Source: Candidatus Altimarinota bacterium (lineage in GTDB: Bacteria; Patescibacteriota; Gracilibacteria; BD1-5; UBA6164). Taken from it: a stretch of DNA of 64,000 nt. Positions 7,159 through 62,493 of the stretch are shown piece by piece. Below the pieces are notes generated by a model. That model ran no database searches and was not told where the DNA came from. It saw nothing but the letters and a program-made list of their open reading frames with translations. Made by a program: the position numbers and the translations under genes. The stretch covers positions 1-64,000 of the forward strand of contig JAQVFO010000001.1 of assembly GCA_028697205.1 (NCBI GenBank), written 5' to 3'. How positions within the stretch are numbered: position 1 is the first letter of the stretch; every line of letters begins with the position of its first letter.

Positions 7159-8109
7159 ATGTCAACTCATAATGATTTCAAAGAACATATAGTTTATCCT
7201 GCTTGGGAAGTAATAAGAAGTGATTCAAAAGTAAAAAAATTTTATTTTTTACCTGGCTTATTATCTATTATACTTTTAACTACACTACTAGTTTATCAAT
7301 CAATTTATACTTACGTAGTAATATTTTGAAAAAAGGAAAAAGCTTTAGAAATAATTTTAGAGTTTTTTCATTCTTGATATTTTCTTGAAATAATTGTTTC
7401 AGCAATTATTTTTATGATAATTTATACTTTTTTAATTCCTATTTTTGAGTGATGACTTATAAAATATCTTGATGAAAAACATAATTGAAGATATATAAGT
7501 ACGATTGATGCGTTATGATTAGGACTTGTTAGATTTTTACCACTTTTTGAATATAATAATGCATTTTCAGAATTTAAATATATAAGTTTATTGAATGCAT
7601 ATTTGTTCTTGATTAGATTTGTATGATTAGAATACATTGTATTTTTAAATTATGTAGTTTTGTGAGCTTTTTTAATATCAACTCTTATAAATGTTTTGTT
7701 TGCTTATGCAAAATATGAGATGGTTTTAAAAAATAAATGAGTATTTCAATCTATATGAGTTTCGGCAAAGATATCAATACTAAATCTGAAAAACACATTA
7801 AAATTATATGTTTTGATGTTTATTATAAACATTAGAGTTTTATTAAATTTCTTAATATTTCTTTTCTTCCCAATTTTATTTGCTGTAGCAATATCATATT
7901 TTACAACTAAACTTTTTCTTACGATTGCAATAATTCTGATATCGATATTATTTATTTTCTTTATATTTTTTCTTGGTTACCTCACAGCTGTTTTAGATGT
8001 ATTTAAAACTTCAATTTGGTATTTTGCATATATTAATTGAAGAAAAAGATTTGAAGAAGATGATCATGATCATGGTCATGATGATAAAGCTGATAGTCAT
8101 CATCATTAA
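7159..8109 (+). CDS. Polytopic membrane protein with His-rich tail
   Basis: A 316-residue integral membrane protein with about six hydrophobic segments and a C-terminal tail rich in Asp and His (DDHDHGHDDKADSHHH), which could bind metal. It starts 3 bases after the solute-binding protein gene and is surely cotranscribed with it. I do not recognise the family. The pairing suggests that the two act together at the membrane, but it lacks an obvious ABC permease signature. A bidirectional terminator follows directly. Confidence 0.75.
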
Positions 8110-8140
8110 AAAAACCGAAATTTATCATTTCGGTTTTTTT
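8109..8140. terminator. Bidirectional hairpin terminator
   Basis: Stem AACCGAAA/TTTCGGTT with A and T tracts on both sides. It serves the convergent genes at 7159 (+) and 8139 (-); the minus-strand stop codon lies in its T tract. Confidence 0.85.
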
Positions 8141-8909
8141 ATTTAAAATCTATATAATATTTTGTGTAATATTTTTTAATCTTTTCTAAATTTTTCAAAA
8201 CTTCTTCTTCATCTCAAACTCATAATTCCATAGGATCTACTTTTAAAGTAATAAATCAATTATAAGCATTAGCTTTTAAATTCATCAAAAAACTTTCTAA
8301 TGGTAAATTAGATATTCATGAAATTTCTTTTCAAGGCAATAATCAATATTCATCTCATCTTTTGTCGCTAAAAAATACATTTTTCATGCTAGTTCAAAGA
8401 ATTTTTGTTGCTTTTATTATATCTATTGCTGATGAATTATCTATATTCGCTATATCAAGACTTGAAAATCATGTTATATTTTTTAGTTCATTTAAAGGTA
8501 TGTTTCTGTATTCAGGAATAATAAAAAGAATGTATTTTGTCTCTATGTTTTGAATTGCAATGTTGAAATTGAAGTTATTCTTTATTTCTTGAAGATATTT
8601 TGTAAACCAAGTTTTACTTTTATCACCAATATGTGGAGGGGAAAAAGTAACAAGTTGAACTTTTAACGCATCAGCAATTTCAAAAATCTTTTCAATTTTT
8701 ACTTTTGTAAGTCATTTTGAAGGTACTGTTATAGAGTATACATTAATTCATGATTTTTCTTTTATATCTTTAATATAATCTACATCCCATAAATCATATT
8801 CTTTTAAATCCATGTATAAATCTAATCAGTCATAATTAGATTTCTTTCCAATTTGGAAGATTCTATGGATTCAATATCATTTTAGGCTATAAGTTGATAA
8901 AAGAAGCAT
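8139..8909 (-). CDS. Xylose isomerase-like TIM-barrel protein
   Basis: A 256-residue protein with the rhythm of a sugar phosphate isomerase/AP endonuclease IV-type TIM barrel: YDGLDLYMD, KSGINVYSITVPS, FEIADALKVQLVTFSPP, NFNIAIQNIETKYI and NAYNGFITLKVDP. Several usual metal ligands cannot be identified with confidence, so activity is uncertain; a degenerate or specialised member is possible. It is a single-gene unit convergent with the upstream membrane-protein operon and shares its terminator. Confidence 0.6.
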
Positions 8910-9095
8910 TTATGAAATATTAAATATTAAATATAAGTGTTAAATAAAATGAAATAATTAATTTACAATTTCAAATTTAACATTTCTTTAATTTTATCAT
9001 TTTTATTTAAAATATGCAATTTTTTAGCATATTTAAACTTGTTTTTTTGCTTATATGTTTTATATTTATGAAGTTAAATTTTAATAAATCAGTAA
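8910..9095. other. Divergent intergenic region
   Basis: AT-rich spacer between the divergent genes at 8139 (-) and 9096 (+). It must hold both promoters, but I see no clear consensus boxes or operator. Confidence 0.4.
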
Positions 9096-10823
9096 ATGGG
9101 CTTCTTTGAAACATTTAAGAAATTATTTTCTCCAATAAAAGTAATACCAAGAGCATATTTTCAAAATATGCTAGAAGCTGTATATCTTTCAACTTACTTG
9201 ATATTTACAATGGAGATATTTAAGCTTATTTTATGATCTATAGAGTACTGACAAAAACAAGATTTTAAAATATTACTATCAATATATTTCGTTATATCAT
9301 TTTTTGTTGGGATTATACGTTTTACTATGTATAAAATGTGATGGGTTGATATAATGTATGAATGAAGAAAAGTTTGGTACAAGATATACTTAGAAAAGTT
9401 TATTCAAGCAGAATGAAATCAAGTTGAAAAAATATGAACCTGAAGATTTATATCTTTATTAGATAAATGAATACATGAATGGTTAGATATGACATTTTAT
9501 TTAACTTTTTATTGACTTCAAAGTTTAATATTTATTTTATATGCAATTTTTTCAATTTTACGTGTTTCATTTTTTTGATGATTAATTAGTTTATTACTAA
9601 TTTTGATCTGATGATATGTTGCTACAAAAGCAAATATATTTATGAGAGATAAAAGAATGCTTAGAAGAAAAGCAGAAAATGAAGCTAATCATCAAGCAGT
9701 TATAGCACTTATGTCAAAAAATGAATTAATGCAAAATAATTGATTAAAAACAATTTTATGAAAGATTTTTACTCATTTTGATGAGGCAAAAGAATATCAT
9801 CATCCTGTAAATGTTTGATTTTTAATAATTGATGAATTTCCAAAGTTTATGTTTCTGTTAATTCGTATCTGAGTTTATATATATTTGTATAGCCAAATTT
9901 TGCTTCATAAATCATCATTTTCAGAATTGGCAATTTTTATAACAATTCTATCACTTATGGAGTTGTCTATGAATAACTTTTTACATTCACTTAGAGATGT
10001 TTTAAGACAAATATCATGAGTCCAACTTTTATGGGAAACTTTTGAAAATTTAACTCCAATAAAGTGATTTAATACTTGAAATATTTTTAAATCAAGAACA
10101 GACAAAATTATTTTAAAAAATATTTCTTATTGATATACAGATAAAAAAGTATTTGATAATTTTTCTTTGATTATAGAGTGAAATAAAAAAACAGCATTTG
10201 TTTGATTATCTGGTTCTGGAAAAACTACTTTAATGAAATTAATTGCTTGATATTTAAGACCACAGGAATGAATTTTAGATATATTTTGAAATGATTTATC
10301 AAAAACATCTTTAAAATCATATTTTACTGAGATTGGTTATTTAACACAAGAACCATCAGTTTTTGATTGAACAATTAGAGAGAATTTAGAAGCAAGTGTA
10401 AAATGAAAAGTTAGTGAAAAGGCAATGAAAGAAGCATTGAAAGATGCAATGTGTGATTTTGTATTTGAATTTGAAAAATGACTTGATACTGAAATATGAG
10501 AAAAATGAATTAGATTAAGCTGATGACAAAGGCAAAGACTTGCAATAGCAAAAATATTTATTAAAGATCCTGAGATAATTCTACTTGATGAGCCAACTTC
10601 AGCTCTTGATAGTTTTTCAGAAGAAAAAATAACTGAAGCTATGCATAGACTTTTTGAATGAAGAACAGTAATAATAATAGCTCACAGATTACAAACAGTA
10701 AAAGAAGCTGATGATATAATTGTGTTAGAAAACTGAGACGTAGTAGAAAGATGAACTCATAAAGAACTCATTAAAAAGAAATGAATTTATAATAAGATGC
10801 TTGAGTTGCAGAGTGGATTTTAA
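9096..10823 (+). CDS. ABC exporter, fused membrane and ATPase domains
   Basis: A 575-residue half-transporter with membrane helices over the first 320 residues and a C-terminal nucleotide-binding domain. Walker A GLSGSGKT is at 370-377, followed by Q-loop LTQEPSVFDGTIRENL, signature LSGGQRQRLAIAKI, Walker B IILLDEPTSALD and H-loop IIAHRL. Two of the Gly residues in these motifs are encoded by TGA. This is the MsbA/multidrug/lipid exporter type and should act as a homodimer. The substrate is unknown. It is preceded by a divergent gene and followed by leuS with a weak terminator between. Confidence 0.9.
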
Positions 10824-10897
10824 AATAAGATTAAAAAAACTAGAAAAAATATAAAATTAGATATAATACAATAAGTTGAAAGACTAGGAATCAAAGC

Positions 10898-10922
10898 TAA
10901 AAGGACTTTTTTAATCCTTTTT
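10898..10922 (+). terminator. Weak hairpin terminator before leuS
   Basis: AAAAGGA and TCCTTTT arms separated by eight bases, followed by T-rich sequence. It lies between the ABC exporter and leuS. It could also be a leader attenuator for leuS, but I see no T-box motif. Confidence 0.45.
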
Positions 10923-10944
10923 CTTTATTTTTTAATTTAAATTT

Positions 10945-14298
<3,354 letters not shown>

Positions 14299-20876: not shown

Positions 20877-22331
20877 ATGGCAGTATCAAATGAAACAGTA
20901 ATAAGCTTCAAATGAGTAGAGTTTTTTTATGATTTCAGAAAACCTATTTTACAAGATGTATCATTCAATGTTAGAAAATGAAGCAAGATAACTATAATGT
21001 GACAAAATTGAGCTTGAAAATCAACTATATTTAAACTTATTAACTGAAGCTTAGAAAAAAAAGCTTGAGTTATAAATGTTGATAAAAAATTAACAATTGC
21101 TACTTGATATCAAGTAGTTTTGCCTGAAGATAAAGAACTTACAGTCGGGGAGTTTTTTAGAAAATATTTTCCAGATAAAACAGTTTTTAATATAGATAAA
21201 CAAATAGCTGAAATTCTTGATGTAGTTAATTTAAAAGCTCCACTTACAAAACACATTAAAGCATTTTCAGGATGACAACAAGCAAGACTTTTGCTTGCTG
21301 CAGCACTTATTCAAAATCCAGATATTTTATTACTTGATGAGCCAACAAATAATCTAGATAAAGATGGGATTTGGCATCTGACTACATTTCTACAAAATTA
21401 TAAAAAAACAGTTTTAGTTATATCTCATGATGCTGAATTCTTAAATAGTTTTACTGATTGAGTATTGTATTTAGATGTTCATACAAAACATGTTGAACAA
21501 TTTGTTTGAGATTACAATGATGTAGTAGAACAAATCAAAAGAAATATAGAAAAAGAAAATATGGCAAATGCTCGTCTTGCTAAAGAAGCACAAGCAAAAA
21601 AAGAGCAAGCAGAAAAATTTGCACATAAATGAGGTAAACTTAGACTTGTGGCAAAAAAGATGAGAGAAGCAGCTGATGAGATGGAAGACGATATAGTTGA
21701 TACAAGAAAAGAAGATAAAACTATAAGAGAATTTACAATTCCACTTCAAGAAGAAATTGGTTGAGTGTTACTTAAAATTCACTCAGTTCATATAATGAGC
21801 CATGATGAGCCTATTGTTAGAGATGTAGAAGTAGAATTAAGAAAAGATGACCACTTACTTTTATCTTGACCAAATTGAATAGGGAAATCAACTTTACTTG
21901 AGAAAATAGTTTCAGGGAAAGAAGATGGATGTACTTTAACTCCTTGAGTAAAAATAGGTTATTATAGACAAGATTTTTCAAATCTTGATTTTAACCAAAC
22001 AGTTTATGATTGTTTAAGAGAAGCAGCATGAGAAAATATGCCAGAACAAGAATTCAGAGCAACAGCAGCTTGATTTCTTATAAATTGAGATGTTATGAAA
22101 GCAAATATCTGAGATCTTTCAGAATGACAAAAATGATTAGTTGCATTTTGTAGACTAGTATTCTTAAAACCAGGTATTCTTATACTTGATGAACCAACAA
22201 ATCATATAAACTTTAGACATATTCCGGTTATAGCAAAAGCACTAGATGAATTTAAATGATGAATGATATTAGTTTCACATATTGATGAATTTGTGTGGCA
22301 AATAAGAATTGATCAGTATTTAGATTTATAA
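20877..22331 (+). CDS. ABC-F family ATPase
   Basis: A 484-residue soluble protein with two ABC domains and no membrane segments. NBD1 has GQNGAGKST, FSGGQQARLLLAAAL and ILLLDEPTNNLD; the charged helical linker is rich in Lys/Glu/Ala. NBD2 has SGPNGIGKST and ILILDEPTNHINF, but its signature is LSEGQKG instead of LSGGQ, so the second site looks degenerate. ABC-F proteins bind the ribosomal E site and act in translation or antibiotic protection. A second, longer ABC-F is encoded at 36667-38379. Confidence 0.9.
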
Positions 22332-22426: not shown

Positions 22427-22936
22427 ATGAATGAAGAAATAAAAATATTATTGAAAAAATTATATGATGATAATGTAGATTCTTTGTATAGATATGCTTA
22501 TTTTAAGCTTAATTCTAAAGATGATGCTTTAGATATTATACAAGAGGCATTTTATAAATTATGAGTTGAATTAAATAAATGAAATGATATAAAAGATTTA
22601 AAATCTTATATTTATCGTATAGTATCAAATAAGATTATTGATTATTATAAAAAAAATAAGCCGATATCATTGGAGGAGCATTTAGAAGAATTTTGAGATA
22701 ATTTTTCTGATAATACTGATATGGAAAACTTAATTCATGCAAAACTAGAAGCAGAAAAAATTTATAATATACTTGCAACTCTTGATGATTTTGAAAAAGA
22801 TATATTTCTATTAAGATTTATGGAAGATGTATCACCAAAGGAAATAGCTGAAATATATTGAAAAGATGTAAATACAATAACAGTTAGGTTACATAGAATA
22901 AAAGATAAAGTAAAATCCAAGTTTGAAAGCTCTTAA
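22427..22936 (+). CDS. ECF-type RNA polymerase sigma factor
   Basis: A 169-residue sigma-70 family protein with region 2 (YRYAYFKLNSKDDALDIIQEAFYKL and SYIYRIVSNKIIDYYKK) and region 4 (FLLRFMEDVSPKEIAEIYGK, VNTITVRLHRIKDKVKS). Regions 1.1 and 3 are absent, as in group IV (ECF) sigma factors. The next gene, 12 bases downstream, encodes a membrane protein of the DUF5667 type, which often pairs with such sigma factors, presumably as its regulator. The signal sensed is unknown. Confidence 0.9.
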
Positions 22937-22948
22937 TTTTAAAAAATT

Positions 22949-23947
22949 ATGAATAATAAATTTAAAAATATAAAAAAATTACTTCATTTAAGTACTAAAG
23001 AAAAGGCTAATTTATGGGAAAAAATAGAAAGTAATATATTTTCTTATGAAAAAAATGTAAGAATATTAGATAATAGTAGTCTTAATAATTGAGAAATAAT
23101 AAAAGATTCTCAAATTTTACATTTTAATAAAAAAAGTATGTTAGCTACTATTATTACAAGTTTACTTATTATGTTATCTGGATGAGTGTCTTTTGCCGCA
23201 GAAACATCTGTTCCTTGAGATTTACTTTATCCTATAAAAGTTAATGTTAATGAAGCAGTTCAAAGTGCATTTACTTTATGAGCTGAAAATGAAGCAAATC
23301 TTCAATTACATCTTATAGAAGAAAGAGTTAAAGAAAAGGCTGCATTAGAAGCAGAATGAAAATTAACTGCAGATGTAGATAGTGAGATAAAAGCTAGAAT
23401 TGAGAAACATTCAGAAAATTTTGAAAAAGAAAAAGAATCAATTCAAAATAAATGAGATGATGAAGTTGCTAGTAAATTGGAATTAAGATTTTCATCACTT
23501 ATAGATAACTTTTGAATACAAACTGCAATTCAAGCTTGAGGTGATGTAAATTTAGGTTCTTGATCTACTAGACAAGAAAGGGAAAGAAATGAAGAGAGAA
23601 ATGAAAATGAATACAAAAATGAGGTTTCTAGTTGAAAAACTGATAATGAAAATGATGATTCAGATAGTATTTCTATATGAGTTGATGGAGCAGTAAATGT
23701 AGGTCTTTGAAATCGTAATGAGACTAGAAATGATGATATAAGAAATTCAGAAGATAATTATAAATGAGATGATAATAGTGTGAGAACAAATACATCTTTA
23801 AAGACTGAATTAGAAAATAACAATTCTGAAATAAAAGCTGATGTAAATACTGATTTATGAACTTCTTTAAATGATGATAAATGAGACTGAGAAGATGAAT
23901 CAATTACTTCAGGGTTAAAAATAAAATGATGAGTAGATATTAAATAA
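22949..23947 (+). CDS. DUF5667-type membrane protein, likely anti-sigma partner
   Basis: A 332-residue protein with a cytoplasmic N-terminus of about 65 residues, one membrane helix (MLATIITSLLIMLSGGVSFA) and an exported domain starting ETSVPGDLLYPIKVNVNEAV, the hallmark of DUF5667. A long helix (NLQLHLIEERVKEKAALEAE) follows. The C-terminal 130 residues are low-complexity, rich in Asn, Asp, Glu and Gly. Its position right after an ECF sigma factor suggests that it holds or releases the sigma factor in response to an envelope signal; that is inference from context. Confidence 0.75.
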
Positions 23948-23959
23948 TAATCTGAAACT

Positions 23960-24000
23960 AAAAAAGACTATTAAAAATTTAATTTTTAATAGTCTTTTTT
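23960..24000 (+). terminator. Hairpin terminator
   Basis: Stem AAAAAAGACTATTAAAAA/TTTTTAATAGTCTTTTTT with a 5-base loop. It ends the sigma/DUF5667 unit. Confidence 0.9.
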
Positions 24001-24076
24001 AAATATATGTTTTTCTTTTGACTTTTAAGTTGGATTTTATATATTTCAAATGATTATTAATTTAATATTTTTAAAT

Positions 24077-24637
24077 ATGACTACACAAAATACTTATCCA
24101 AAATCTATGATGCATTTTCATCTTTTATGATTATTACTTGTTCTTACAGCATATATAGTAATTTCTATGACAGATTTATTTCCTAAATGAAGTATTTTTC
24201 ACAATGTTGTCTTACAAACACACTTTTTTGTAGGTCTTTTAGTACTTGTGCTTGTGTTTCCTCGTTTAATTTTACGTATGAGAAAATATAAAGAAATTCC
24301 TCCTATTACTCCAGAACTTACTAAAGTTAATAAAATTTTTGTAAATATTGGACATAAAGCTTTATATGTATGGATGTTACTTATGCCTTTATTTGGTTGG
24401 GCTTTGGCTAGTGCAACATATGGTAGTTTTGATATTTATGGTATTCAAATTCCTGGAATAGTACCTCAGAGTAGAGATAATATGATATTATTTCGTGACC
24501 TGCATGAAATGTTTTGAGGAATTGGTATGGTATTAATTTCATGACATGTAGCTATGGCCTTATGGCACCATTTTAAAATGCAAGATGATACAATTACACG
24601 TATGTTTCCATGGTTTAAATGGAGAATAAAGAAATAA
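24077..24637 (+). CDS. Cytochrome b561 family protein
   Basis: A 186-residue protein with four membrane helices and the His pattern of the bacterial b561 (YodB/CybB) family: H14/H16 region in MMHFHLLGLLL, H in VLQTHFFVGLL, GHKALYVWMLLMPLFGW, LHEMFGGIG and SGHVAMALWHHF. These would ligate one or two b hemes and move electrons across the membrane. It is monocistronic with its own terminator. No other respiratory gene is visible in the window, so its electron donor and acceptor are unknown. Confidence 0.85.
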
Positions 24638-24673
24638 AAAAAAGATTATCTTAATTTTAAGATAATCTTTTTT
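24636..24673 (+). terminator. Hairpin terminator of the b561 gene
   Basis: Stem AAAAAGATTATCTTAA/TTAAGATAATCTTTTT followed by Ts. Confidence 0.88.
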
Positions 24674-24738
24674 AATAATTTTTTGTTGGTTATTGTTTAA
24701 AGGATTAAAAGAGCAATTAAAGAAATATAAAATATATA

Positions 24739-24766
24739 TTGACAATATGTAATATAATTTTATAAT
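24739..24766 (+). promoter_or_regulatory. Consensus sigma-70-type promoter
   Basis: TTGACA (24739-24744), 16-base spacer and TATAAT (24761-24766), 36 bases before the start codon at 24803. Both boxes are perfect. Confidence 0.8.
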
Positions 24767-24802
24767 AAGTTTAAAATTTTAAAAAATTAGCCAATCAAAC
24801 AA

Positions 24803-27800
24803 ATGAATAGTTTATTTATAGATAATGATAATGTATTACAATTTCCTACTAAAAAAAACATAGTACCTCACGTAAATCAATGAGAAAATAATCTTTATAA
24901 TGAATGAACTATTGAATTTCAATTAACTAGATGATTGAATCTTTTTAAACCTAATCAGAATCTTGCTGACACAAAATTACTTGTAGATAATAGATGAGAA
25001 CTTATTAGAATAAATACAGATTTATTTGCTTTAGATTGACATGCTAATATATGGGAATTGGTAGAGTCTCCTGCAAATTCAGAAATTATAATAAGAGCTA
25101 GAGAAAAAGTTATAGATACTATTAATGATTTACCAGATACTTTATCAGAAAGAGTATATTCAGCTAGAGAAAAGATATTAATGTTAAATTGATTTAGAGA
25201 TAAATTTGATAGTTTAGATGATTTAAAGTGAATAATAGAAGATTTAGAAAAGGAAGATAAAATAAAATGGGATGATAATAGTATGCTTGCTAGATTGCTT
25301 TTTGCTTTTGAATGACCATCCTCGTTAGATTTTGAAGAAGTAAGAAAATTAATTCCGTGATATATTCAAATAATTAGAAATATTTCGTGAGAATTTTTTT
25401 CAAAAGTATCAGATGAATTGTTTGAACAATTTGAAAGAGCTAATAATTTTTCACTTGAAGATTTAAAGAGAATTTATAAAGAAAGTGATTATAAAGCTTT
25501 TAGAAAGCTAAAATCTGATGTTGAAAGTTTTTGTAATGTCTATAATTATTGGGATTGAATATTAATTGTTTCAAAATGGGCTAAGAATGGCTATATAAAT
25601 AATGTTTTAACAACTACTGGAAAAGAAATTGCATCATCTGTAAAGGATCCAAGATATTTGTTAAATGCAGATATAAATTGATTTTTTAATCATATATCAA
25701 ATAATTTGCCAAATAAATCTAAAGTTGAAGTTTATTGTTGATGAAATGGAAGTTGAAAAAGCACATGGTTAAAATCAAGATTAATGATGCAATTATTTTA
25801 CCAAACTTATTGAAAAGCTGCAATAAAAGATTCTGAATTAAATTTGAGAGATCAAATAGTATTTATTAATAGATGATGAAGTTGATATTGAGAAGATTTA
25901 AGTGCATTTTGAAATGATATAAAAAGAAAACTAATGGTTCTTATTCAAAATATAAAGAACTGATCTTTAGTTTTTTTAGATGAATTTTGATCTACTATTC
26001 CTGAAGAAGAAGCATATTACTTAATAAGAGCAATACTTGATTATTTGAACGATTATGATACAAAAATTTATCTGTCTAGTCATAATGAAAGATTTATAAA
26101 TTGGTCATCAAAAGATAGAGATTCTTGAGTTTGTGTATATAATTTTAAATCAACTCCAGTAAAAGACTGAACAGTCAATTTTTCATATAAATTAGTTGAG
26201 TGAGTTGATAATTCTCATACTTTAGAAGTATTTAGAGCAGCATGATTACCTATGGAAATATTGAAAAGAGCTAATGCATTTATGTTATGATCTTATCAAG
26301 TCCCAAATTGATATAATATTTTACCATTTAAAGATATAGTTTCATATACTAGAGAAGAAAGAGAAAAACTAAAACAAGAAAATAAATGATTTGAATGATT
26401 TACTAGATATAATGATATGATTAAATTTCGTTATAAAGGTGATGAATCAAATTATAGAATTATAAGAAAATATGAACCTTTATGACATTGAAATAGACCA
26501 AACAAATATTACTCAAATGAAGATTTGTTTTTTTCAGCATATCATCCTGATTGTTTAGATCAAAGTGCGCCAGAATTAACTTTTGATTTTGTGAGATATT
26601 GAACAGTTAATTCATGGAGAATTGAAAATGATAATATTTTTAAAGCTTCCCATCTTGAATCAACTTGAATTAATGATAAAAATATTTTTTCATCTATAAA
26701 TTGAACTCTTTCTTCACTTACTACATGGTGATTAACTAGTGATGTAAAAGAACTTCAAGAAAGGCAAAGATTTTTTGAGGAAATTTGAAACTGGTCTTAT
26801 GATGATGCAAATAGAATATATAAAGATATAAATACTTTTAAATGGATATTTGCTAATTTTCAGGATTGATGAATTTGGTGACCTAGGCTTGATTTTAATT
26901 ATGATGAATTAAAAAGATTTAATAAATCGTATTGGGAGTGATTTTTTAATGGAATAGAACAATATCTTGTTTGGGAATGATTTTGAAGAGTATGTGAATG
27001 GTTTCTTATACTTGTTGAGATGGAAGATAAATTAGAAAATTTACCAAAATGATTTAAAGAATCTAATAAAGAATTTTTATGAAAGTTACAGCAAACAATT
27101 AAATTAACAAAGAGATATAATAAAGCAGAAAAAAGAAAGGATAGTTGGAATGAATGATATAAAACAAGTAAAGAACTTGCAGAAAAGGTATGTGAGAAAG
27201 TAAAGAATTTACTTGTTGATTTATGGTGAACTGAGACAAAAACCGTAATTGAGCAAATGAAGCAAGTATACTCAGAGATTGATGCATATAGTTTACCAGT
27301 AGATATTCTAAATATGGATTCTGAGAAACGTAATTTGGTTGTTTCATACATAGATGATAGCAGAATTTTTCAACACGCTAATCCTAATTCTTCAGAGAGT
27401 ATTTCAAATTGATTTTATTGAATGACTCAGCTTATACGTGCATTAAAATGAAGTTGAAATTTACTTAAACCATTACTTGATAAACTTAGAACCTTTGATA
27501 GTGTTCATGCTAATCAGTTAGCAAATTATTTAGAGGATTTTGTAACAGTACCAGATGTTGAAAACCTTGTTAATTTAGTAAAATTAAAAAGAGATAACCT
27601 TGAAGAGTTTAAAAATAGAAGAGAACATTATAATATAGATAGAGAACATTGATGAACTGCTATAATGGAATTGTTATGATTGATTGATATAGCAAATCAG
27701 ATAAAAAAATTGTGATTGGTTAAAGTAATGTATAATAATACAGGGGAAGTAGATGTAAGAGAAATTAGTCATCCTTGAGTTGAAAAAACTAGGAAAGAAC

Positions 27801-28462
27801 AGACTTGTAATGATGTTTATTTATGACAAACTCAATTTTTTGATATTCTTGAGTGAGCTACTATGTGATGAAAAACATTTAATATTCAGTCAATGCAATG
27901 GGTTATTAGACTATCTCAAAGTATTTGATTTGTTCCTGCTAAATATGCTAGTTTGCCAGTATTTGATTGATTAGTTTATATAGATAGAATACTGGAAGAT
28001 GAAAAGAAAAAATTAAGTGCATGACAAAATGATGCAAAATCTTGGGTAGAAATAATTAATAGAATAAAAGGTTTAGTATTGGAAAAGTCTAAAAAATGAA
28101 GATACTGGTTTTCTATAGATGAGATGATATCAAGTGTACCAGCTAGATTTCAAAAATGATTAGTTGCTGCATTGTTAGAAGAGTTAACTGTATTATGACA
28201 AAAATGACAGATTTCTATACATAATCCAGAGTTAGTTTCAAATCTTTTAAAAAATAATCCTGAATCATATGTTGTTCGTCATCCTGAGGTAGAATTTGGA
28301 GAAAAATGAGATATTAAATACACTTATAAGATTGTTGATTGAAGAAGTATAGATAAAGATTGACATTTTACTGCTTATTCTTTAGAGACAGCTGAAAAGA
28401 TATGATTACCAAAAGTTATTATTGATAGAGCAAGAGAATATAAGTTATGATTAAGAAAATAA
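24803..28462 (+). CDS. Single-chain protein with two MutS-like ATPase domains
   Basis: A 1219-residue protein. The first ATPase has Walker A GNGSGKST (314-321), Walker B LVFLDEFGSTIPEEE (D393, E394), SSHN, and the MutS-like ending LEVFRAAGLPMEILKRANAF. The second has GATMGGKT (1018-1025), the WFSIDEM Walker B (D1106, E1107), SIHN, and HFTAYSLETAEKIGLPKVII. MutS has GPNMGGKST, LLDEIGRGTS and a comparable AGLP tail. Each ATPase is preceded by a helical region in the place of the lever/clamp; the second also has the EISHPGVE strand seen before Walker A in MutS. I see no mismatch-reading Phe-x-Glu domain and no Smr nuclease domain. MutS proteins normally dimerise to build composite ATP sites, so this may be a covalent pseudo-dimer. 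Its DNA role is unknown. Confidence 0.8.
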
Positions 28463-28491
28463 ATAACAAATAATAGTAAGTATTATGATAA

Positions 28492-28521
28492 AAAATAACC
28501 TCTAGAAATAGAGGTTATTTT
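28492..28521 (+). terminator. Hairpin terminator of the MutS-like gene
   Basis: Stem AAAATAACCTCTA/TAGAGGTTATTTT with loop GAAA. Confidence 0.9.
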
Positions 28522-28669
28522 GGTGTTTGTGGAAATGGTCGGTTATAGTAGACAGGATTAGAAATCAAGTTGAGGAATTTGAGTGCAAAATAAAATTGTA
28601 ATATTATAGACTTTTTTTAATAGATATGGTAAAATTATCATAATATTATTTATTACAGTGTATAATATT
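28522..28669 (+). other. Intergenic region between first two accessory units
   Basis: It holds repeat copy 1 (28536-28570) and, from about 28607, AT-rich sequence that probably contains the promoter of the next gene. No further ORF is visible. Confidence 0.5.
28536..28570. repeat. tRNA-3'-end-like repeat, copy 1
   Basis: Begins TGGTCGGTTATAGTAGACAG and continues GATTAGAAATCAAGT. Near-identical copies are at 29386-29420 and 31163-31197. The start TGGTCGG is the same as the antisense 3' end of tRNA-Pro at 32188, and GACAGGATTAGAA resembles an antisense T-arm. There is no room for a complete cloverleaf. Confidence 0.85.
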
Positions 28670-29281
28670 ATGAATTGATTAAAAACAGTATGGGATAATA
28701 AAAAGTCTTGATTATGAGATTCTACTGTTGTAATTGACTGAAAGAAATGTTTTAAATTATATCCTAGACAACATTTTTCACCTAGTGATATAGAATTTTA
28801 TCAAGATGTACAAAATAATTTAGGCAGCTTTATTTTGATATCAAAAAAATGATTTAGATTTTGATTTTTTAAAAAGAAATTACATACAGTAAAAGTTGAA
28901 TTTTTAAATTTATGACAAGAGCTATATGAAGCGAGTGATATTTCTGATAGATTAAGATTATTAGTTTCAGAGGTTCCTTATGTTGAATGAGAAACATTGG
29001 GGGATTTAAATGAAAAGTTTTTTAGTCCCGTAGATATAGATTTTTTAAGAAACTTAGTTAAATGAATAGAGGAATCAAGTTTAAGTTATTATGATACTTG
29101 AACAAATATGCCTTTTGGATATGACCCAATTCTTAATTATCAAATTAATCCTTATAATATAAAAGTGAAAAAGATTGATAGAGAAAATTGAGAGCTACAT
29201 CTTATAATAACTGATATTTCAACAAAGGCATTTAGATTTATACAAAAAAATAAACATAGAGTGTTAGGATTGATAACTTAA
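28670..29281 (+). CDS. Small protein with pseudokinase-like features
   Basis: A 203-residue protein without membrane segments that I do not recognise by family. Its order of motifs resembles a protein kinase core. A beta-strand with lysines (VVIDGKKCFKLYP) is followed by a hinge-like VPYVEGETLGDL, then LNYQINPYNIKV (156-166) in the place of HRDxxPxNIxV, then LIITDIS in the place of DFG. The catalytic Asp of HRD would be Gln158, so if the fold is right the protein is catalytically dead. It is a single-gene unit with its own terminator and 3' repeat. Confidence 0.6.
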
Positions 29282-29321
29282 TAAGTTTCTAAAGAAAAGT
29301 TTATTTATGAATTTATTAAAA

Positions 29322-29420
29322 ATTACTATAAACGTTAGAACTAAATAAAGCTCTCATTTGAGAGCTTTATTTGTGTAAAATGTACTGGTAGGTTATAGTA
29401 GACAGGATTAGAAATCAGGT
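29322..29420. repeat. 99-bp unit-end repeat, copy 2 (hairpin plus tRNA-like end)
   Basis: The stretch from ATTACTATAAACGTTAGAAC to GAAATCAGGT is almost the same as 31099-31197 and has the same length, differing mainly in the hairpin loop region. The last 35 bases are shared with 28536-28570. Confidence 0.88.
29343..29372 (+). terminator. Hairpin terminator within repeat copy 2
   Basis: Stem AAATAAAGCTCTC/GAGAGCTTTATTT, loop ATTT. Confidence 0.88.
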
Positions 29421-29478
29421 AGAAGATTATAGTAAATTTAGTTGTAACTTAACATCGAACTTGAGAAAACAGTAAAAA

Positions 29479-29507
29479 TTGATTAATAATCTAAATTATG
29501 TTAAAAT
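29479..29507 (+). promoter_or_regulatory. Probable promoter of the NlpC/P60-like gene
   Basis: TTGATT, 17-base spacer and TAAAAT, 28 bases before the start at 29536. Confidence 0.6.
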
Positions 29508-29535
29508 AGAATAAATAATATTTTAGATAGATTAT

Positions 29536-31098
29536 ATGAGTTTAGAATCATTGAATAGTATTAAATCTATTAAAGAACAAAGAGAAGAATTATTAAAATT
29601 AAATCCAGATTTGTTAGCTTGAGTATATTCTATAGTTGAAGAAAAAGATTGAGGATTAAAATTAGAGTTAGCCGAAAATATTTTAACTTGTTATCCAAAT
29701 CAGTTTCAAGGGTTAAGATGATTAAAAGATAATAGTGATATAACAATTATAAATTTATGAGCTTTAAGGAAGTGAAAAGTAGAAGTTTTTTTTTGAAATA
29801 ATGTTGAATGAAAAAATTTAGTTTTATTATCAAATTGAGTAATAGAATTAGTAGAGGCTCAAAATAAAAATTGAGATATAAGAAAACATTTAATTTCTAC
29901 TCTTAGAGATTGATGAGCTGTAGATGAGTTACAAAGAACAACTACAGCAGGTAGAAATACTTGAGATGATTTATATGAAGATTTAGAAAAAGAACATATA
30001 GAAGAGTCTCCATTTTTATGATATGATAGAGATGGAAAATTAGCTTTAGCAATTATTGATAATTCTGCAGAATCAATAGAAATATTAAGAGAATCTATAA
30101 AATTCTTTTTAGATAGAAAGTATTTAAAATCTTGAGACATAAATTATGAATATGCAAAAAAGAATTTTGAAAGAAACTTTCCTTGAATCAGTTATGATGA
30201 TTTAAGAGCTATATTAATAGATATTATAGATAATAATAGAATATTTACTTATTCAGTAGAAGAAGAAAATTGATTTAAATGATTGTGAGATAATATGAAA
30301 GAAATATCATTATGAAATTCAAAGTGAAAATATTTTGTTTATTTTGATAAAGATAACAATACTATTGAATATAGATTGATAAGAACAATAACTTGATTTA
30401 ATGGTTGATTTAAACTTTTATCTAAAAGACCCTCTAGATTATATTTAGAAAGTGAAAATCAATATCCTAGAATCCCAAGAGTAGAAAATGCTAGTAAATG
30501 ATATGTTCCAACTGTTAAATATTTTAGGGATAAAGTTAAATTAACTATTTCAGATATAATAGAACTAAACTCTGAAGTAAATGAGTATGATGATCTTCCA
30601 GAAGAAGCTTACGAAAGGTATTTAGCAATTCCAGATGAAAAAAAAGAAGAGTTTTTAAAAAAATATAAGAAAAAATATAAATCTAGGAAACCATGAATTA
30701 GAAATAAAAAAACTAGAAAGTGGTTATTAGATTTTTTTGGAAGAAGTAATTTAAATCATTTCCCTGGTAATATTTTAATAAGATTGTTAGAATATATTGA
30801 AAATAAGAAAAAGTATGATGATTTAGATTGTAGATGATTTGTGTTGTTTTTGTATTCATCAAGCAATTTAAAGTATTTAGGATGAAATATTGATATATGA
30901 GATATTGTTTGATTTTGAGAGAGAAGTGTTTTTTATAATTGAAGACAAGAATTTAAGTCTAATCATTTTGGTATATATATATGAAATTGAAAATATTTAT
31001 CAAAACTTTGAAGGTGACATGATAATGTAGTTGTAATGAGTGAAAAAAATTTACTTAAAATGTATAAGAGTCTTGATGTATGAAAATACATTACCTAA
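29536..31098 (+). CDS. Protein with C-terminal NlpC/P60-like domain
   Basis: A 520-residue soluble protein. The N-terminal 370 residues match nothing I recognise. A very basic stretch (KKKYKSRKPGIRNKKTRK) precedes the last domain. That domain has DCRGFVLFLY with Cys432 in the place of the NlpC/P60 nucleophile (usually DCSG), IGDIVGFGE, then NHFGIYIGNGKYLSK with His477 in the usual place of the catalytic His, and a possible third polar residue at His495. NlpC/P60 enzymes cleave peptidoglycan peptides. No signal peptide is present, so export or an intracellular target is unclear. It is a single-gene unit. Confidence 0.6.
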
Positions 31099-31197
31099 AT
31101 TACTGTAAACGTTAGAACTAAATAAAGCCCTATTTTAAGGGCTTTATATGTGTAAAATGTACTGGTCGGTTATAGTAGACAGGATTAGAACTCAAGT
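31099..31197. repeat. 99-bp unit-end repeat, copy 3 (hairpin plus tRNA-like end)
   Basis: Same organisation and length as 29322-29420: ATTACTGTAAACGTTAGAAC, a hairpin, TGTGTAAAATGTACTGGTCG, then the tRNA-3'-end-like part ending GAACTCAAGT. Confidence 0.88.
31120..31149 (+). terminator. Hairpin terminator within repeat copy 3
   Basis: Stem AATAAAGCCCT/AGGGCTTTAT with a short AT loop. Confidence 0.85.
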
Positions 31198-31241
31198 GGA
31201 GGAGTATAAATATTAAATAAAAGAATAAGTAAGTAAAAGAT

Positions 31242-31268
31242 TTGACAATTAGATATATTACTTATAAT
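31242..31268 (+). promoter_or_regulatory. Probable promoter of the glycosyltransferase gene
   Basis: TTGACA and TATAAT with a 15-base spacer, which is shorter than ideal, 36 bases before the start codon. Confidence 0.55.
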
Positions 31269-31304
31269 TTTTTTTAAATAATTACTCAAAGTAATTTTAA
31301 TTTT

Positions 31305-32084
31305 ATGAATTTAAATACAAGATTTTCTTCAAATTATGATGCTTCTAGCATTAAAGATAGAATATTAGGTTTACAATCGGCTAAACCAGAGTGAAGTGTA
31401 GTAATTTGTGCATATAATGAGGAAAAATATTTATTAAGTTGTCTTGATTCAATAAGTAGATTAGAGACTGAATTACCTTTAGAAATAATTGCTATTAATA
31501 ATGCTAGTCAAGATAGAACTGTTGAGATACTTGAATCAATTTGAGTACATGTATTTGATGAACCTAGAAAGTGAATTTCATTTGCTAGAAGAAAGTCTGT
31601 AGAGGTTGCAAGATGAAAGATTATTTTTCAGACAGATGCTGATACTCAAGTCCCTAAAGATTGGATAGATTTACATTTATCACATTATCATAGATCTAAT
31701 GATGTAGTTTGAGTCCATTGAGAAGCACATTTTGATAGAGTTCATAAACTATTCTATTTACAAAAGATATGAGTGATTACAATAATACAGTTATTAAAGT
31801 TTTTGTGAAGATATCCTTCAGAAAGAGTGGTATGAGCCAATATGTCATTTATAAAGGAGGTAGCTTTAAGTGTATGAAATTATACTTTGTGACAAAATTA
31901 TCTTGAGGATGTTTGATTGTTTGATAAGATGTCTTCAAAAGGTATTATTGTAAACGATAGATGAATAAGTGTAATTACATCTGGCAGGAGATACTCATCA
32001 ATTGATAGAATATTAAAGACAATACTAGATCGCAAAAAATCATCATGAAGTAATTGATTTCAAAGTATTGTAGATTATAGGTAA
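31305..32084 (+). CDS. Family 2 glycosyltransferase
   Basis: A 259-residue GT-A fold enzyme. It has GSVVICAYNEEKYLLSCLDS at the nucleotide-binding start, EIIAINNASQDRTVEIL, the DAD-type metal motif in FQTDADTQVPKDW, and a C-terminal acceptor region with YLEDVGLFDKM (ED general base). It transfers a sugar from a nucleotide sugar to an unknown acceptor such as a lipid or surface glycan. A hydrophobic stretch (VITIIQLLKFLG) could associate with the membrane. It is the last gene of the accessory block. Confidence 0.88.
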
Positions 32085-32187: not shown

Positions 32188-32264
32188 TGGTCGGAGACGT
32201 GAGACTCGAACTCACAACCCCACGCTCCCAAAGCGTGTGCGCTAGCCAATTGCGCCAGTCTCCG
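32188..32264 (-). tRNA. tRNA-Pro (anticodon TGG)
   Basis: The minus strand reads CGGAGAC...GTCTCCG-A-CCA with D arm, anticodon loop TTTGGGA and T loop TTCGAGT, so the cloverleaf is complete. The 3' CCA is encoded. It is the downstream-most tRNA of a three-gene cluster. Confidence 0.95.
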
Positions 32265-32278
32265 AAATATATTGTAAA

Positions 32279-32355
32279 TGGTGGGTATAGATGGAGTTGA
32301 ACCATCGACCTCACGATTATCAGTCGTGCGCTCTAACCAACTGAGCTATACACCC
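32279..32355 (-). tRNA. tRNA-Ile (anticodon GAT)
   Basis: The minus strand has acceptor arms GGGTGTA and TATACCC (one G-U pair), anticodon loop CTGATAA and encoded CCA. It lies between the Gly and Pro tRNAs. Confidence 0.95.
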
Positions 32356-32449
32356 AAAATTAATCAAAAATTACGAATTAAAAATTACAAATAAAGATTA
32401 TTTAGAATTCGTAATTCGTAATTCGTAATTTAGAAATTATTTTATTTAA
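32356..32449. repeat. CGTAATT repeats between tRNA genes
   Basis: Short tandem and inverted copies of AATTACGAATT / ATTCGTAATTCGTAATT. They form possible hairpins in the tRNA precursor and may guide processing. No gene is present. Confidence 0.5.
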
Positions 32450-32526
32450 TGGAGCGGGTAAAGGGACTCGAACCCTTAACCCTCTGCTTGGAAGGCAGAT
32501 GCTCTAGCCAATTGAGCTACACCCGC
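32450..32526 (-). tRNA. tRNA-Gly (anticodon TCC)
   Basis: The minus strand reads GCGGGTG...TACCCGC with anticodon loop CTTCCAA and encoded CCA. This is the ordinary GGA/GGG-reading glycine tRNA. The UCA-anticodon tRNA-Gly expected for UGA decoding is not in the window. Confidence 0.95.
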
Positions 32527-58173: not shown

Positions 58174-61100
58174 ATGTCTAATTCAAATGTTGGAATTTCT
58201 TATATTGGTTGAATTGATGATAAAGAAAAATGAGTTACTCTTACATGATCTTGTACACTTTTTGAGCTAAATGTTTGATGAAAAAAGAAAGCAAAAGTAG
58301 TTATTGATGCATGAATGTTTCAATGAGCAAAAGGTGATAACGATGCAAATGAAGAAGTGGATGAAAGAATACTTGATGCAGACTATTTAATTGTTACACA
58401 TGCTCATATGGATCATACTTGAAGAGTTCCATATTTGGTAAAAAAATGATTTAAGTGAAAAATAATAATGAGTAATTTAACACAACTTCAAGAGTTAGCT
58501 ATGTGGGAAGACTATGTTAGACTAACGAAAAATGAAATTGAAAGAATAAGTAACAAAAATGATAAAACAAGAGATAAACTTAAAAAAGCTTTTTTTGTTA
58601 TATCAACTATTGATTCTTTAAATTCTGAAAAAATTACACATAAATTAAAAAAATTAAAAAAAAGATTAGAAGAATTATTGTGAACAAAAGATTTTGATTC
58701 AGCATATAGTGAATCAAAATCTTTAATTGCAGAATATAAAGAAAAATTTTGATTAGAATCAGAAAAAGATATTGAATCAGTATTAGATGAAGTTCCAACT
58801 CTTTTATATGATGAAAAAGATATATGAAAAACAGTTGATTATATTAATGTTTTAGAAACTAACGAAGAATATGACTTAGAAAATTTCCATCCTATAAGCT
58901 CTTGAAAAGATGATCTTATAATGGAGCTTCCAAAAATGGTAAGTAATTGATTTTCTGAAAGAGTTCCAGTTTTGACATATATGAAATGAACTGTTATATC
59001 AAAACTCAGACATGAATGGGATAAACTAAAACATAATTTAGATGAAAATGAAAGAATTAATGAAGAAAATGCAGAGTTATCTGAAAAATTAACAAGTGCA
59101 TTTAACTTTGTTAAATGGTGTAAAGAACATAAAGCAAATCTTGAGGAATTTGAGGCTGAAAATAAAGAATTGTTAGCAAATACTGAAAAATGAATTAATG
59201 ATGAAATAAGAGATTTGTTATATGTGAATTTTAAATGAAGTAACCGGAAAGTAGCTAGTATAGTTGATTTTTATAGAAAAAATTATCTTAAATTACCAGC
59301 AAATATTGCTCAATATTGAATAACAAAAAAAGAATTAGATAATCTATGAATAGAAGATGAATCGGATATAAATTCAGTTTTACCAGATTTACCTTGATAT
59401 AACTATGATTTATCAGATATTCGTAAAGTTTTATCTTCAACAACATATGTTAAAGATGATTTTGATATATCAACATTTAATTACAAAGATGAAATATTGT
59501 TTATAAATTCTACTCTTAAATTTAATCCTAGTGAATTATTAGATATTTGTTTAAATAAAAGAAAAAAAAGAATATTTATAAAAGAATCAATAAAAGAATA
59601 TGTTATTCAGAAACTCAGTGATTTTATTGAAAATAATAGAAAAAATATTGCATTATCAAATTCCTTAAAGCAAAAATTAAATAATAGTTTAGATTTAATT
59701 GAAATTTATAATTGAAATCATTTAGCATATTTGAGGAAAAATAGAAAGGCATATTTAAAAGCTGTAAATTTTATTTCATATTATGAATATAACCCAAATA
59801 ATTTAAAATTACCTACGCTTTCAGAATCAGATTTAGATGAAATAATTAATAATTATGAAAAATGAAATAATACTATTCATATAAAAAGAGTTGATGATAA
59901 GAGGATTTATGACATACTCTTTTCTACATCAAGTAATTATTATTTTGAGCCTAAAATAAGAGAAAGAGTAAAAGAAAAATTGATTGATAAAATTGCTGAA
60001 ATTACTTTAAATATAAAGAAAGAAAAAGAAAAATTAGATACTTATAGTAAAGCAGTTAGTTTAGAAAAAATATATGATGCAAAATTAGTTTTAGCTTCAC
60101 TTGATGAGTGAAATCTAACACTTGAAGATGCTAGAAAGATATTAGAAGAAAATAATATAAAATCACAAAATGATATTGCTTGATTTGTAGTTCAAACTAC
60201 AGATTTGTATAGTAACTCTGATATAACAAAGTTTCTTAAAAAAATAAATTATATAAATTCAGAAGATGAATTACCTAATTGAGATGATTTTATTTATATT
60301 GAATCACTTGATGATCCAAGGTTTTTTGAATTTAGAACTTTTGTTGATAATAAAAAAATCTTTTTAAAACATTGAATTTTAAAAAAAGATATTGAAGAAT
60401 TATTAAAAAATCATAGAAATTTAGCAAATTCAACTTATAAACAAGAAAAAGATGTAAATGATTCATTTAAAAATTTACTTTATAAAGCATTCTCAATTGT
60501 TGAAGCTGATGAATATTTAAAAGATATATGAATTACAAAAGAAAAATATGAAGAAGCTCTTAATTTATTAAATGAATATTCTATCTCATCTAGAAAAGAT
60601 GTAGATAAATTGAATAAATATGAAACATTTTATCCATATTCTTTGAAAGATTTAGAAAACTTTTTAAAAAATATTTCTATTGTTTGAGATGATTTTGAAT
60701 TAAAATCTTCAATTGATTTTATCGTAATTGATAGTTTAGATGATGAAAGAATTTATGATTTACCATATAACTATAAAGATTTAACAAAAGTTGTTTATAT
60801 AAAAGACAGTTTAAAGGATGATATAAAGAAGAAACTTTTGTCTTGAATGTGAGAAAGATATAAAATGATGTCAGTAAGAAGAAAAAAGAGGTTAGAATTA
60901 AGAAAAAAATATGATTGGATAAAATTTATGTATGAAAACTGAGCATTATTATTTAATTTACCTGATAACAAAAGTCCAATAGAATTTTATGATGAATTAA
61001 AAGAAAGAGTTTTAAAGATAGAATCATTAAAAGTTAAATTAAAAAGATTTAAAAGAGTAAGTGAGTTATATGAGAACTTAAAGGTGTCATGAGATTCAAA

Positions 61101-62493
61101 ACTTCAAGCATTTATAGAAGCAGAAGATTTCTTGAAAAAATATAAAATAAATACTTTAGAAGACATAGATAATGTATATAAAGAACTTCATTTTATACCA
61201 TATACGCTTGAAGATGTAGAAAAAGCAATAAGTCTTTTAAAATGAGTTCATATTGATAAAAATGAAACTATATTAGAATCTTTGAAGTTAAGATTTTTTA
61301 AGGCAGGGCATATTGAATGAAGTGTGCAAGCTGTAATTACAGTTGTAGTAAGTGAAGTAGATAATGTATTAGGTTGAAAGATAAAAAAAATAGATGTAAA
61401 AACATCTAAAAGAAGAAGATTAAGTCATAAAAACTTTTGAGTTTCTTGAGATTGATGAAGATTAAAAGATCCAAATATTGCTTGATCTCCAGAAGTTCCA
61501 AACATAGATTGAAAACCATTGAAGTTAGACTATTGGCAAATGGAATCAACTTATGCAGGTAGATTACATCCAGATAAACAAAAAAGTATTGATGAACTTG
61601 TAAGTGCAATTTCAAATGCTCCATGAAAAGTTCTTATTCCTGCTTTTTCTATGCAAAGAACACAGGAAATACTTATGATTTTGTTGGAAAGGATGCTTGA
61701 TTCAAGAATTAATATAGATGAAATAAGGAAAATAAACTCTGAAATATATGAATTGAGATCAAAGATAAAATGAATTTCAAAATCTGTTTCAGATTTAGAT
61801 GCATTAGAAATGAAAAGTGTTTACCAAGAAGAAATAAATGAGTTAGAAGAAAAATTAAGATATTATAAATATAAAATATTTGATTATGATATAATTTTAG
61901 ATAGTCCATTAAGTCAAAAAATTACAGAGATATATTTATCTAAATTATGAGCAAAGTATAATTTTCTTAATTCTGATACGCAAATTAAATTATTTTGAAG
62001 AGAAAGAATTAAGATACTTGAAAAATCAGATTGATACAAAGAACTTTATACTGAAGAAAGAAAGAATAAAAAAGAAATTGTATTATCAGCTTCTTGAATG
62101 TGTGATTGATGAGCTATTACTTCACATCTAAAAGAAATTCTTCCAAATTCAAATGCTACAATTGCGTTTGTATGATATTGTCCCTCAAACACTAGATGAT
62201 GAAAAATAAAAGCAAAAGAAGAATATATACCAATAGATCAGAAACCTTATGAATTAAATTGTGAGATTGTTGATATTTGATGATTTTCATGACACCCAGA
62301 CGAGGAAGAAATAATTACTTATTTAAGTGAATTACTAGAATATAATAAATGAGCACAGATTGCATTAACTCATTGATGAGAGGCAAGAGAAGAACTAGCT
62401 CCAAAAGTTAAAAAAGCAATTAAATCTAAAAAATGACAAGTTATAAATATAATTAAACCAAAATTGGGAGATACTGTAACTATAAGTTTATAA
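58174..62493 (+). CDS. Giant metallo-beta-lactamase/beta-CASP protein with repeated insertion
   Basis: A 1439-residue protein. The N-terminus is an MBL fold with metal motif THAHMDHTG (H76, H78, D80, H81). From about residue 1030 the fold resumes: FFKAGHIEGS (H1046), STYAGR, then the beta-CASP part KVLIPAFSMQRTQEIL, LDSPLSQKIT, SASGMCDGGAITSHL, FVGYCPSNTRGGK, FSGHPDEEEI and THGGEAREEL. CPSF73/RNase J-type proteins without insertion have roughly 450-550 residues. The 900-residue insert is helical, highly charged and has internal similarity: FIYIESLDDPRFFEF, FIVIDSLDDERIYDL and IHIKRVDDKRIYDI, and GITKKELDNL / GITKEKYEEAL. All catalytic residues are kept, so an active RNA (or DNA) nuclease is likely. 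Confidence 0.85.

Follow-up and report, generated by a model that had tools for sequence, protein, structure and literature searches.

At positions 24803-28462 of the 64,000-nucleotide stretch of Candidatus Altimarinota DNA analyzed here (contig JAQVFO010000001.1; hereafter the window), we find a gene encoding a protein with two MutS-type ATPases on a single chain, which we refer to as double-MutS. On balance, we favor the view that double-MutS proteins constitute a so far unrecognized MutS subfamily: two core-plus-ATPase units, both corresponding to MutS monomers that lack domains I, II and IV, share one chain and would act as a single-chain pseudo-heterodimer on a large target other than a mismatch. 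To our knowledge, the two ATP sites of the MutS-family proteins known so far always come from two chains, and a full-text literature search, with most subscription papers beyond its reach, returned no description of a tandem, double or fused MutS.

The first-pass annotation, drawn from the DNA letters alone, had assigned to this protein two MutS-type ATPases, each with a Walker A, a Walker B, an SHN or IHN switch and an AGLP- or IGLP-containing helix, and this assignment was confirmed. The whole 1219-amino acid (aa) protein scored 69.2 bits against Pfam MutS_V (cut-off 30.2) over two stretches, and two MutS_V stretches were likewise found in each of the 7 family proteins scanned. The P-loop, the Walker B DE, the signature Ser and the switch His are intact in both ATPases of the window protein, with the AGLP and IGLP helices located C-terminal to ATPase 1 and ATPase 2, respectively. 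The same motifs are retained in both halves of nearly all of the 20 proteins in our motif table, which also bears out the proposed divergence between the halves (GNGSGKST against GATMGGKT, DEFGST against DEMISS). The features are as follows, with the Walker, signature and switch motifs taken from the motif table.

24803-28462, + strand: double-MutS ATPase gene; 1219 aa, genetic code 25 (73 TGA = Gly), full-length homologues
25040-25702, + strand: lever/core helices of the N-half (residues 80-300), aligned to E. coli MutS domain III from residue 303 (hhalign, N-half against canonical MutS)
25070-25117, + strand: MutS domain III-start motif (residues 90-105; P...I..RQ in relatives), from family alignments and hhalign
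25703-26302, + strand: first MutS domain V ATPase with AGLP helix (residues 301-500), from Pfam MutS_V with the N-half alone (46.9 bits)
25739-25762, + strand: Walker A of ATPase 1, GGNGSGKS(T)
25898-25912, + strand: signature loop of ATPase 1, LSAFG, the equivalent of MutS STFM, expected to act in trans
25967-25996, + strand: Walker B of ATPase 1, LVFLDEFGST, with Ser in place of E. coli Arg697
26078-26086, + strand: switch of ATPase 1, SHN
26303-26602, + strand: linker between the halves (residues 501-600) with the conserved motif YTxEEREkLK, from family alignments
26603-27802, + strand: lever region of the C-half (residues 601-1000) with an ERQ motif (653-655) and a family-specific DSVH motif (899-902), weakly alignable to MutS domain III (family alignments, hhalign)
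27803-28459, + strand: second MutS domain V ATPase with IGLP helix (residues 1001-1219), from Pfam, the family profile, hhalign and the C-half model
27854-27877, + strand: Walker A of ATPase 2, GATMGGKT
28013-28024, + strand: signature loop of ATPase 2, LSAG
28118-28135, + strand: Walker B of ATPase 2, DEMISS
28217-28225, + strand: switch of ATPase 2, IHN
22427-32084, + strand: variable slot holding the double-MutS gene, between ABC-F (20877-22331) and tRNA-Pro/Ile/Gly (32188-32526)

Under genetic code 25, which reads TGA as Gly, positions 24803-28462 form a single open frame of 1219 aa containing 73 TGA codons; no + strand open reading frame (ORF) was found there with the standard code (table 11). 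Table 4 was rejected in favor of code 25, as it puts Trp where the P-loops need Gly. When the window gene was aligned to its standard-code relative G734b, 39 of 68 aligned TGA codons stood opposite Gly and Trp was not among their commonest partners, while TGG stood opposite Trp in 15 of 19 codons. On these grounds, we consider the frame real and code 25 correct.

The annotation had called for each half to be compared with MutS domain V separately, and on Pfam alone only the first half passed. Residues 1-550 matched MutS_V with 46.9 bits (E = 4e-12, profile positions 4-183), and by hhalign the N-half corresponds to E. coli MutS columns 303-795 with 99.8% probability (56% for its lever alone), making it equivalent in profile comparison to domains III and V, with no good counterpart for the clamp region. 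Residues 551-1219 scored 25.5 bits (E = 1.5e-5), below the 30.2-bit cut-off and over the Walker A region only, which probably reflects the divergence of the window's own branch. The family's first-half profile matches the second half of the window protein at E = 5e-34; across the family the half-1 profile recovers half 2 and vice versa, with scores mostly above those of canonical MutS; and in several relatives the best full-length MutS_V stretch lies in the second half (residues 989-1187 of P0003 and 1112-1294 of P0004). Family C-halves correspond to E. coli MutS 545-792 with 99.8% probability (hhalign). When the C-half was modeled alone (pLDDT 63), the 50 best PDB matches obtained with Foldseek were all MutS, MSH or MutS2 structures, reaching about 1e-9 with B. 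subtilis MutS2 on a collided disome as the top match (7qv3, E = 8e-10), and the 50 best matches of the full-chain model (pLDDT 66) were also MutS-family structures only. Given the cross-profiles, the close relatives and the fold search, the second ATPase is secure as a MutS domain V, and the failure in profile or structure comparison that the annotation had named as fatal to its proposal did not occur.

Beyond the ATPases, both halves show the P...I..RQ motif that opens domain III, the linker carries EERE at residues 518-521 with R520 invariant across 14 homologues, and a DS(V/I)H motif precedes the second ATPase. We know of no counterpart in MutS for either the EERE or the DS(V/I)H motif. The subfamily can be defined by two ATPase halves that are specific to it and keep the same order on the chain, by the EERE linker motif and by the DS motif before half 2; the window protein has all of these.

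The domain architecture of MutS has been summarized previously (PMC12292046). Among the 7 family members scanned, MutS domains I, II, III and IV gave no Pfam match at E < 0.1, with the mismatch-recognition domain I (PF01624) and domain II (PF05188) unmatched in all 7, and half-by-half scans and hhalign agree with the annotation that a mismatch-recognition domain is missing. At the level of sequence, double-MutS proteins have no recognizable mismatch-recognition, connector or clamp domain, and the window protein has no Pfam match to Smr. The cut-offs for mutS1 (65.5 vs 641.7 bits for TIGR01070; 66.4 vs 480 for NF003810) and for MutS2 (73 vs 400 bits for TIGR01069) were missed. For all 6 proteins scanned, the top NCBIfam match was the KamC family NF052383, at 82-171 bits against a cut-off of 300; this match is non-specific, because the same profile gives 167-215 bits for canonical MutS from these genomes. 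By profile cut-offs, the window protein is therefore not MutS1, MutS2 or KamC.

The window's genome also encodes a canonical MutS, divided between two genes, and a MutL-like gene was seen in G004, a genome of the same genus. With its own domains I and II absent and canonical MutS encoded elsewhere in the genome, double-MutS probably has a job other than mismatch repair, which lends indirect support to the annotation on this point. The split of canonical MutS is itself a feature of the lineage, with domains I-III (profile positions 3-393) and the remainder (394-853) encoded at separate loci; in G000 these lie on contig C3 at ~120.95-122.2 kb (L175:1451-2656, + strand) and on contig C11 (L170, a 486-aa frame on the - strand). 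In G000, G005 and G010 both parts are present and the break falls at the same place (profile 393-397); an N-part ending there also occurs in G012 and G021. We are not aware of any earlier account of a MutS divided at a conserved position.

We then considered maximum-likelihood trees built from the ATPase domains, the second of which adds MutS2. First halves form one clade (99/97; 93/95 with MutS2 added), as do second halves (98/93; 96/91 with MutS2 added), and the two clades together (100/99) stand apart from MutS1, MutS2 and membrane-anchored MutS-like proteins, in keeping with the annotation's suggestion of a new branch of the superfamily. Because the N-halves and C-halves each form one clade and are joined apart from MutS1 and MutS2, the trees are most simply explained by a single duplication or fusion event that preceded the spread of the double gene. 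The window protein is 51% identical to its relative in G012, 44% to G734b of the Saganbacteria phylum and 28% to that of its genus-mate G004. With G012 and G734b it forms a subfamily in both halves (100/100), and the first half of the G004 protein groups with the other G734 copies. As the window's subfamily spans phyla, the gene would either have been transferred between them or go back to old paralogues that were lost many times.

Double proteins number 21, in 18 genomes from three phyla, and their carriers are several groups of uncultured, mostly tiny bacteria. In the window's class of candidate phyla radiation (CPR) bacteria, 10 of 353 genomes encode the full double protein; a sample of 380 genomes from the same phylum outside this class yielded none. 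The Saganbacteria phylum contributes 3 of 74 genomes (one with two copies, one with three) and Omnitrophota at least 5 of 384, a minimum because two candidates at most were scored per genome. The G198 and G856 records end at contig ends and represent incomplete proteins. A search of GTDB contigs with a four-sequence alignment as the query gave named records from Candidatus Peribacteraceae, Candidatus Gracilibacteria, Candidatus Omnitrophota and Candidatus Saganbacteria. No double protein of the family was found in phage and plasmid collections, leading us to reject a phage or plasmid origin, or in viral contigs, which contained two single-ATPase relatives only. One Saganbacteria locus (L092:2659-6963 and 7803-12104) holds two double-MutS paralogues with one short gene between them. 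More distant tandem-MutS proteins outside the family occur in G714 (L159:2-2863; 953+ aa), G769 (L160:6193-9318; 1041 aa) and G1082 (L158:2708-11731; 3007 aa), the first two with GxNGxGKT and DEPG(R/K)GT motifs. They may group with the double-MutS family (63/30) or be independent fusions.

In a MutS dimer, the domain V faces meet in a head-to-tail arrangement, with the ATP site of either subunit completed by the signature Ser of its partner. Because both units of double-MutS are on one chain and all motifs are kept, we infer that the most likely arrangement is a cis pair, in which the two ATPases would pack head to tail as MutS subunits do in trans, creating two non-identical composite ATP sites, each completed by the signature Ser of the opposite half. 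Fusion would fix this pairing and permit a permanent asymmetry that is impossible in a homodimer. ATP binding and hydrolysis would move the two lever arms, letting the chain clamp around a large target or force it open. By analogy with MutS2 and MSH4/5, this target would most likely be a nucleic acid structure or a nucleoprotein, and not a base mismatch; a protein complex is possible. Lacking domains I and II, the molecule would have a wide opening as in MutS2, which would suit a junction or nucleoprotein better than a mismatch.

Several observations weigh against this proposal. The cis packing is inferential, and the models are of moderate confidence (pLDDT 66 for the full chain, 63 for the C-half); in addition, the C-half lever can hardly be aligned with MutS domain III. 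Both halves have Ser in place of Arg697 of the E. coli motif DEIGRGTS, and one family member, from G888 (L124:3578-11779), is a one-sided pseudo-ATPase whose C-half P-loop and Walker B are destroyed (YGEPEGSLTRE, VMAEAG), so the activity may differ from that of MutS. Lastly, the neighborhood survey suggested by the annotation, an all-against-all comparison of neighbors at 20 loci, returned only core genes and repeat proteins and no conserved partner gene, which makes the target of double-MutS a guess.

The strongest rival explanation, though an unlikely one, is that double-MutS is a MutS2-like stress factor whose substrates are collided ribosomes, which it would split, or recombination intermediates. 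The two share the reduced core-plus-ATPase architecture without domains I and II, the top PDB match of the C-half model is the disome-bound MutS2 described above, and no MutS2 over the cut-off was found in 10 genomes of the Saganbacteria and Omnitrophota phyla or in 237 Omnitrophota genomes, so the MutS2 niche may be free. However, MutS2 is recruited to collisions by its KOW and Smr domains (PMC10897456), both absent from double-MutS; its clade is a separate one; and the distribution of double-MutS is far too patchy for a housekeeping rescue factor.

A second explanation, which we regard as distinctly unlikely, places double-MutS in a host- or prey-interaction repertoire, exported in some lineages and working within or on a different cell. 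The Omnitrophota copies of the double-MutS unit form part of much larger proteins (1669-2799 aa). Three such giants, together with the G1082 tandem-MutS protein, have a signal-peptide-like start (judged by eye) and a 350-400-aa module, which has no Pfam or NCBIfam name and is 43-46% identical to the N-terminus of a neighboring giant with a sugar-nucleotide epimerase domain; most of these giants, including the unrelated epimerase giant, also carry a GGID...PVI-like C-terminal tail (L090, L122, L124 and L158 for the shared module and tail). In G734 (L119, L120, L121), the three double-MutS genes share an N-terminal M..K(I/V/L)(I/V/L)(S/A) motif with tightly packed neighbors encoding unrelated proteins, among them a GH77 4-alpha-glucanotransferase and a fructose-bisphosphatase-like protein; the motif is rare among other ORFs of those loci and is a possible targeting motif. 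The shared starts and tails look like sorting signals on unrelated cargo, and epibionts and predators are found among Omnitrophota and CPR bacteria, with Omnitrophota described as ultra-small, partly predatory or parasitic, and rich in poorly understood giant ORFs (PMC10066038). Against export, inspection by eye shows no evident signal peptide in the window protein and its other CPR relatives, and we therefore treat export as a trait of some lineages only; moreover, an exported ATPase would be without ATP unless delivered into a cell. The fuller proposal, that proteins mediating cell-to-cell interaction in episymbiotic and predatory bacteria repeatedly carry the double-MutS unit as cargo, with the motor exported within giants in Omnitrophota at least and acting on nucleic acids or nucleoproteins of the host or prey, is more speculative still.

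It is improbable that double-MutS is a protein-remodeling ATPase like KamC, the MutS-type reactivase of lysine 5,6-aminomutase. While NF052383 is the top NCBIfam match in 6 of 6 proteins, the scores are far under the cut-off and overlap those of canonical MutS, and no aminomutase-type gene was recognized beside any copy among the annotated neighbors examined.

The genomic setting bears on a function in phage defense or mobile elements, which we judge very improbable. Besides the double-MutS gene, the variable slot contains genes for a b561, a 207-aa protein, a 520-aa protein with a weak NlpC/P60 match and a glycosyltransferase, and is followed by the tRNA-Pro/Ile/Gly cluster and FolD. Genome G001 of the same genus has the same flanks (ABC-F 94%, the three tRNAs, FolD 81%) around unrelated small genes, and none of these four neighbors had a match in four other same-genus genomes checked, so the annotation's cassette-like region holds. 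The patchy distribution, apparent transfer between phyla and a variable slot beside tRNA genes would suit such a function, but PADLOC matches were weak, partial and to generic ATPase models (best 23 bits, E = 9e-6), neither a nuclease nor any other effector was recognized adjoining the gene, and phage and plasmid collections yielded no family member. An artefact, in which misassembly or a wrong code joined two genes, would draw on the metagenomic assembly and the missing standard-code ORF, but is already refuted by 21 homologues in 18 genomes, many of them standard-code, from independent projects, and by the TGA codons opposite Gly in G734b.

Two other window genes carry large insertions. The leucyl-tRNA synthetase (10945-14298) has ~200 extra residues (roughly 225-425) between its catalytic and editing domains, which read like a small hydrolase fold (...IIIGHGLG). 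A Beta-CASP/RNase J-type protein of 1439 aa (58174-62493) has a very large insertion, with ~1100 residues separating the lactamase start (25-107) from the Beta-CASP domain (1231-1345).

If double-MutS is indeed a natural single-chain pair, ATPase asymmetry would become testable by single-site mutation, a change that is hard to make in homodimeric MutS. A MutS motor without a mismatch sensor has been adopted by small-genome bacteria and apparently passed between phyla, which would make MutS-family functions wider than repair, recombination and ribosome rescue.

Among known systems, the membrane-anchored MutS-like proteins (~550-600 aa; L094, L095, L125, L193) resemble double-MutS in having a MutS V ATPase without domains I and II, but form their own clade (100/95), with hydrophobic N-terminal segments and one ATPase. 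KamC (NF052383; ~508 aa) also combines a short MutS-type core with an ATPase; it too has only one, and double-MutS matches it non-specifically, under the cut-off and with no metabolic context among annotated neighbors. MSH4/MSH5, likened here by description rather than by sequence, is an asymmetric MutS-type pair without a mismatch domain (general knowledge; PMC12292046), but consists of two separate eukaryotic proteins with clamp domains. MutS2 has the same order of core/lever helices and MutS domain V ATPase without domains I and II; it forms homodimers, each chain bearing a single ATPase as well as KOW and Smr, whereas double-MutS has two diverged ATPases per chain, no KOW or Smr, and a clade of its own. 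The MutS1/MSH heterodimers (MutSalpha, MutSbeta) share the domain V motifs and the AGLP-type C-terminal helix, with GRGT replaced by (G/F)STT in double-MutS, which, unlike them, has no mismatch-recognition, connector or recognizable clamp domain and carries both partners on one chain. As in MSH2-MSH6, the two ATP sites of double-MutS would be non-identical.
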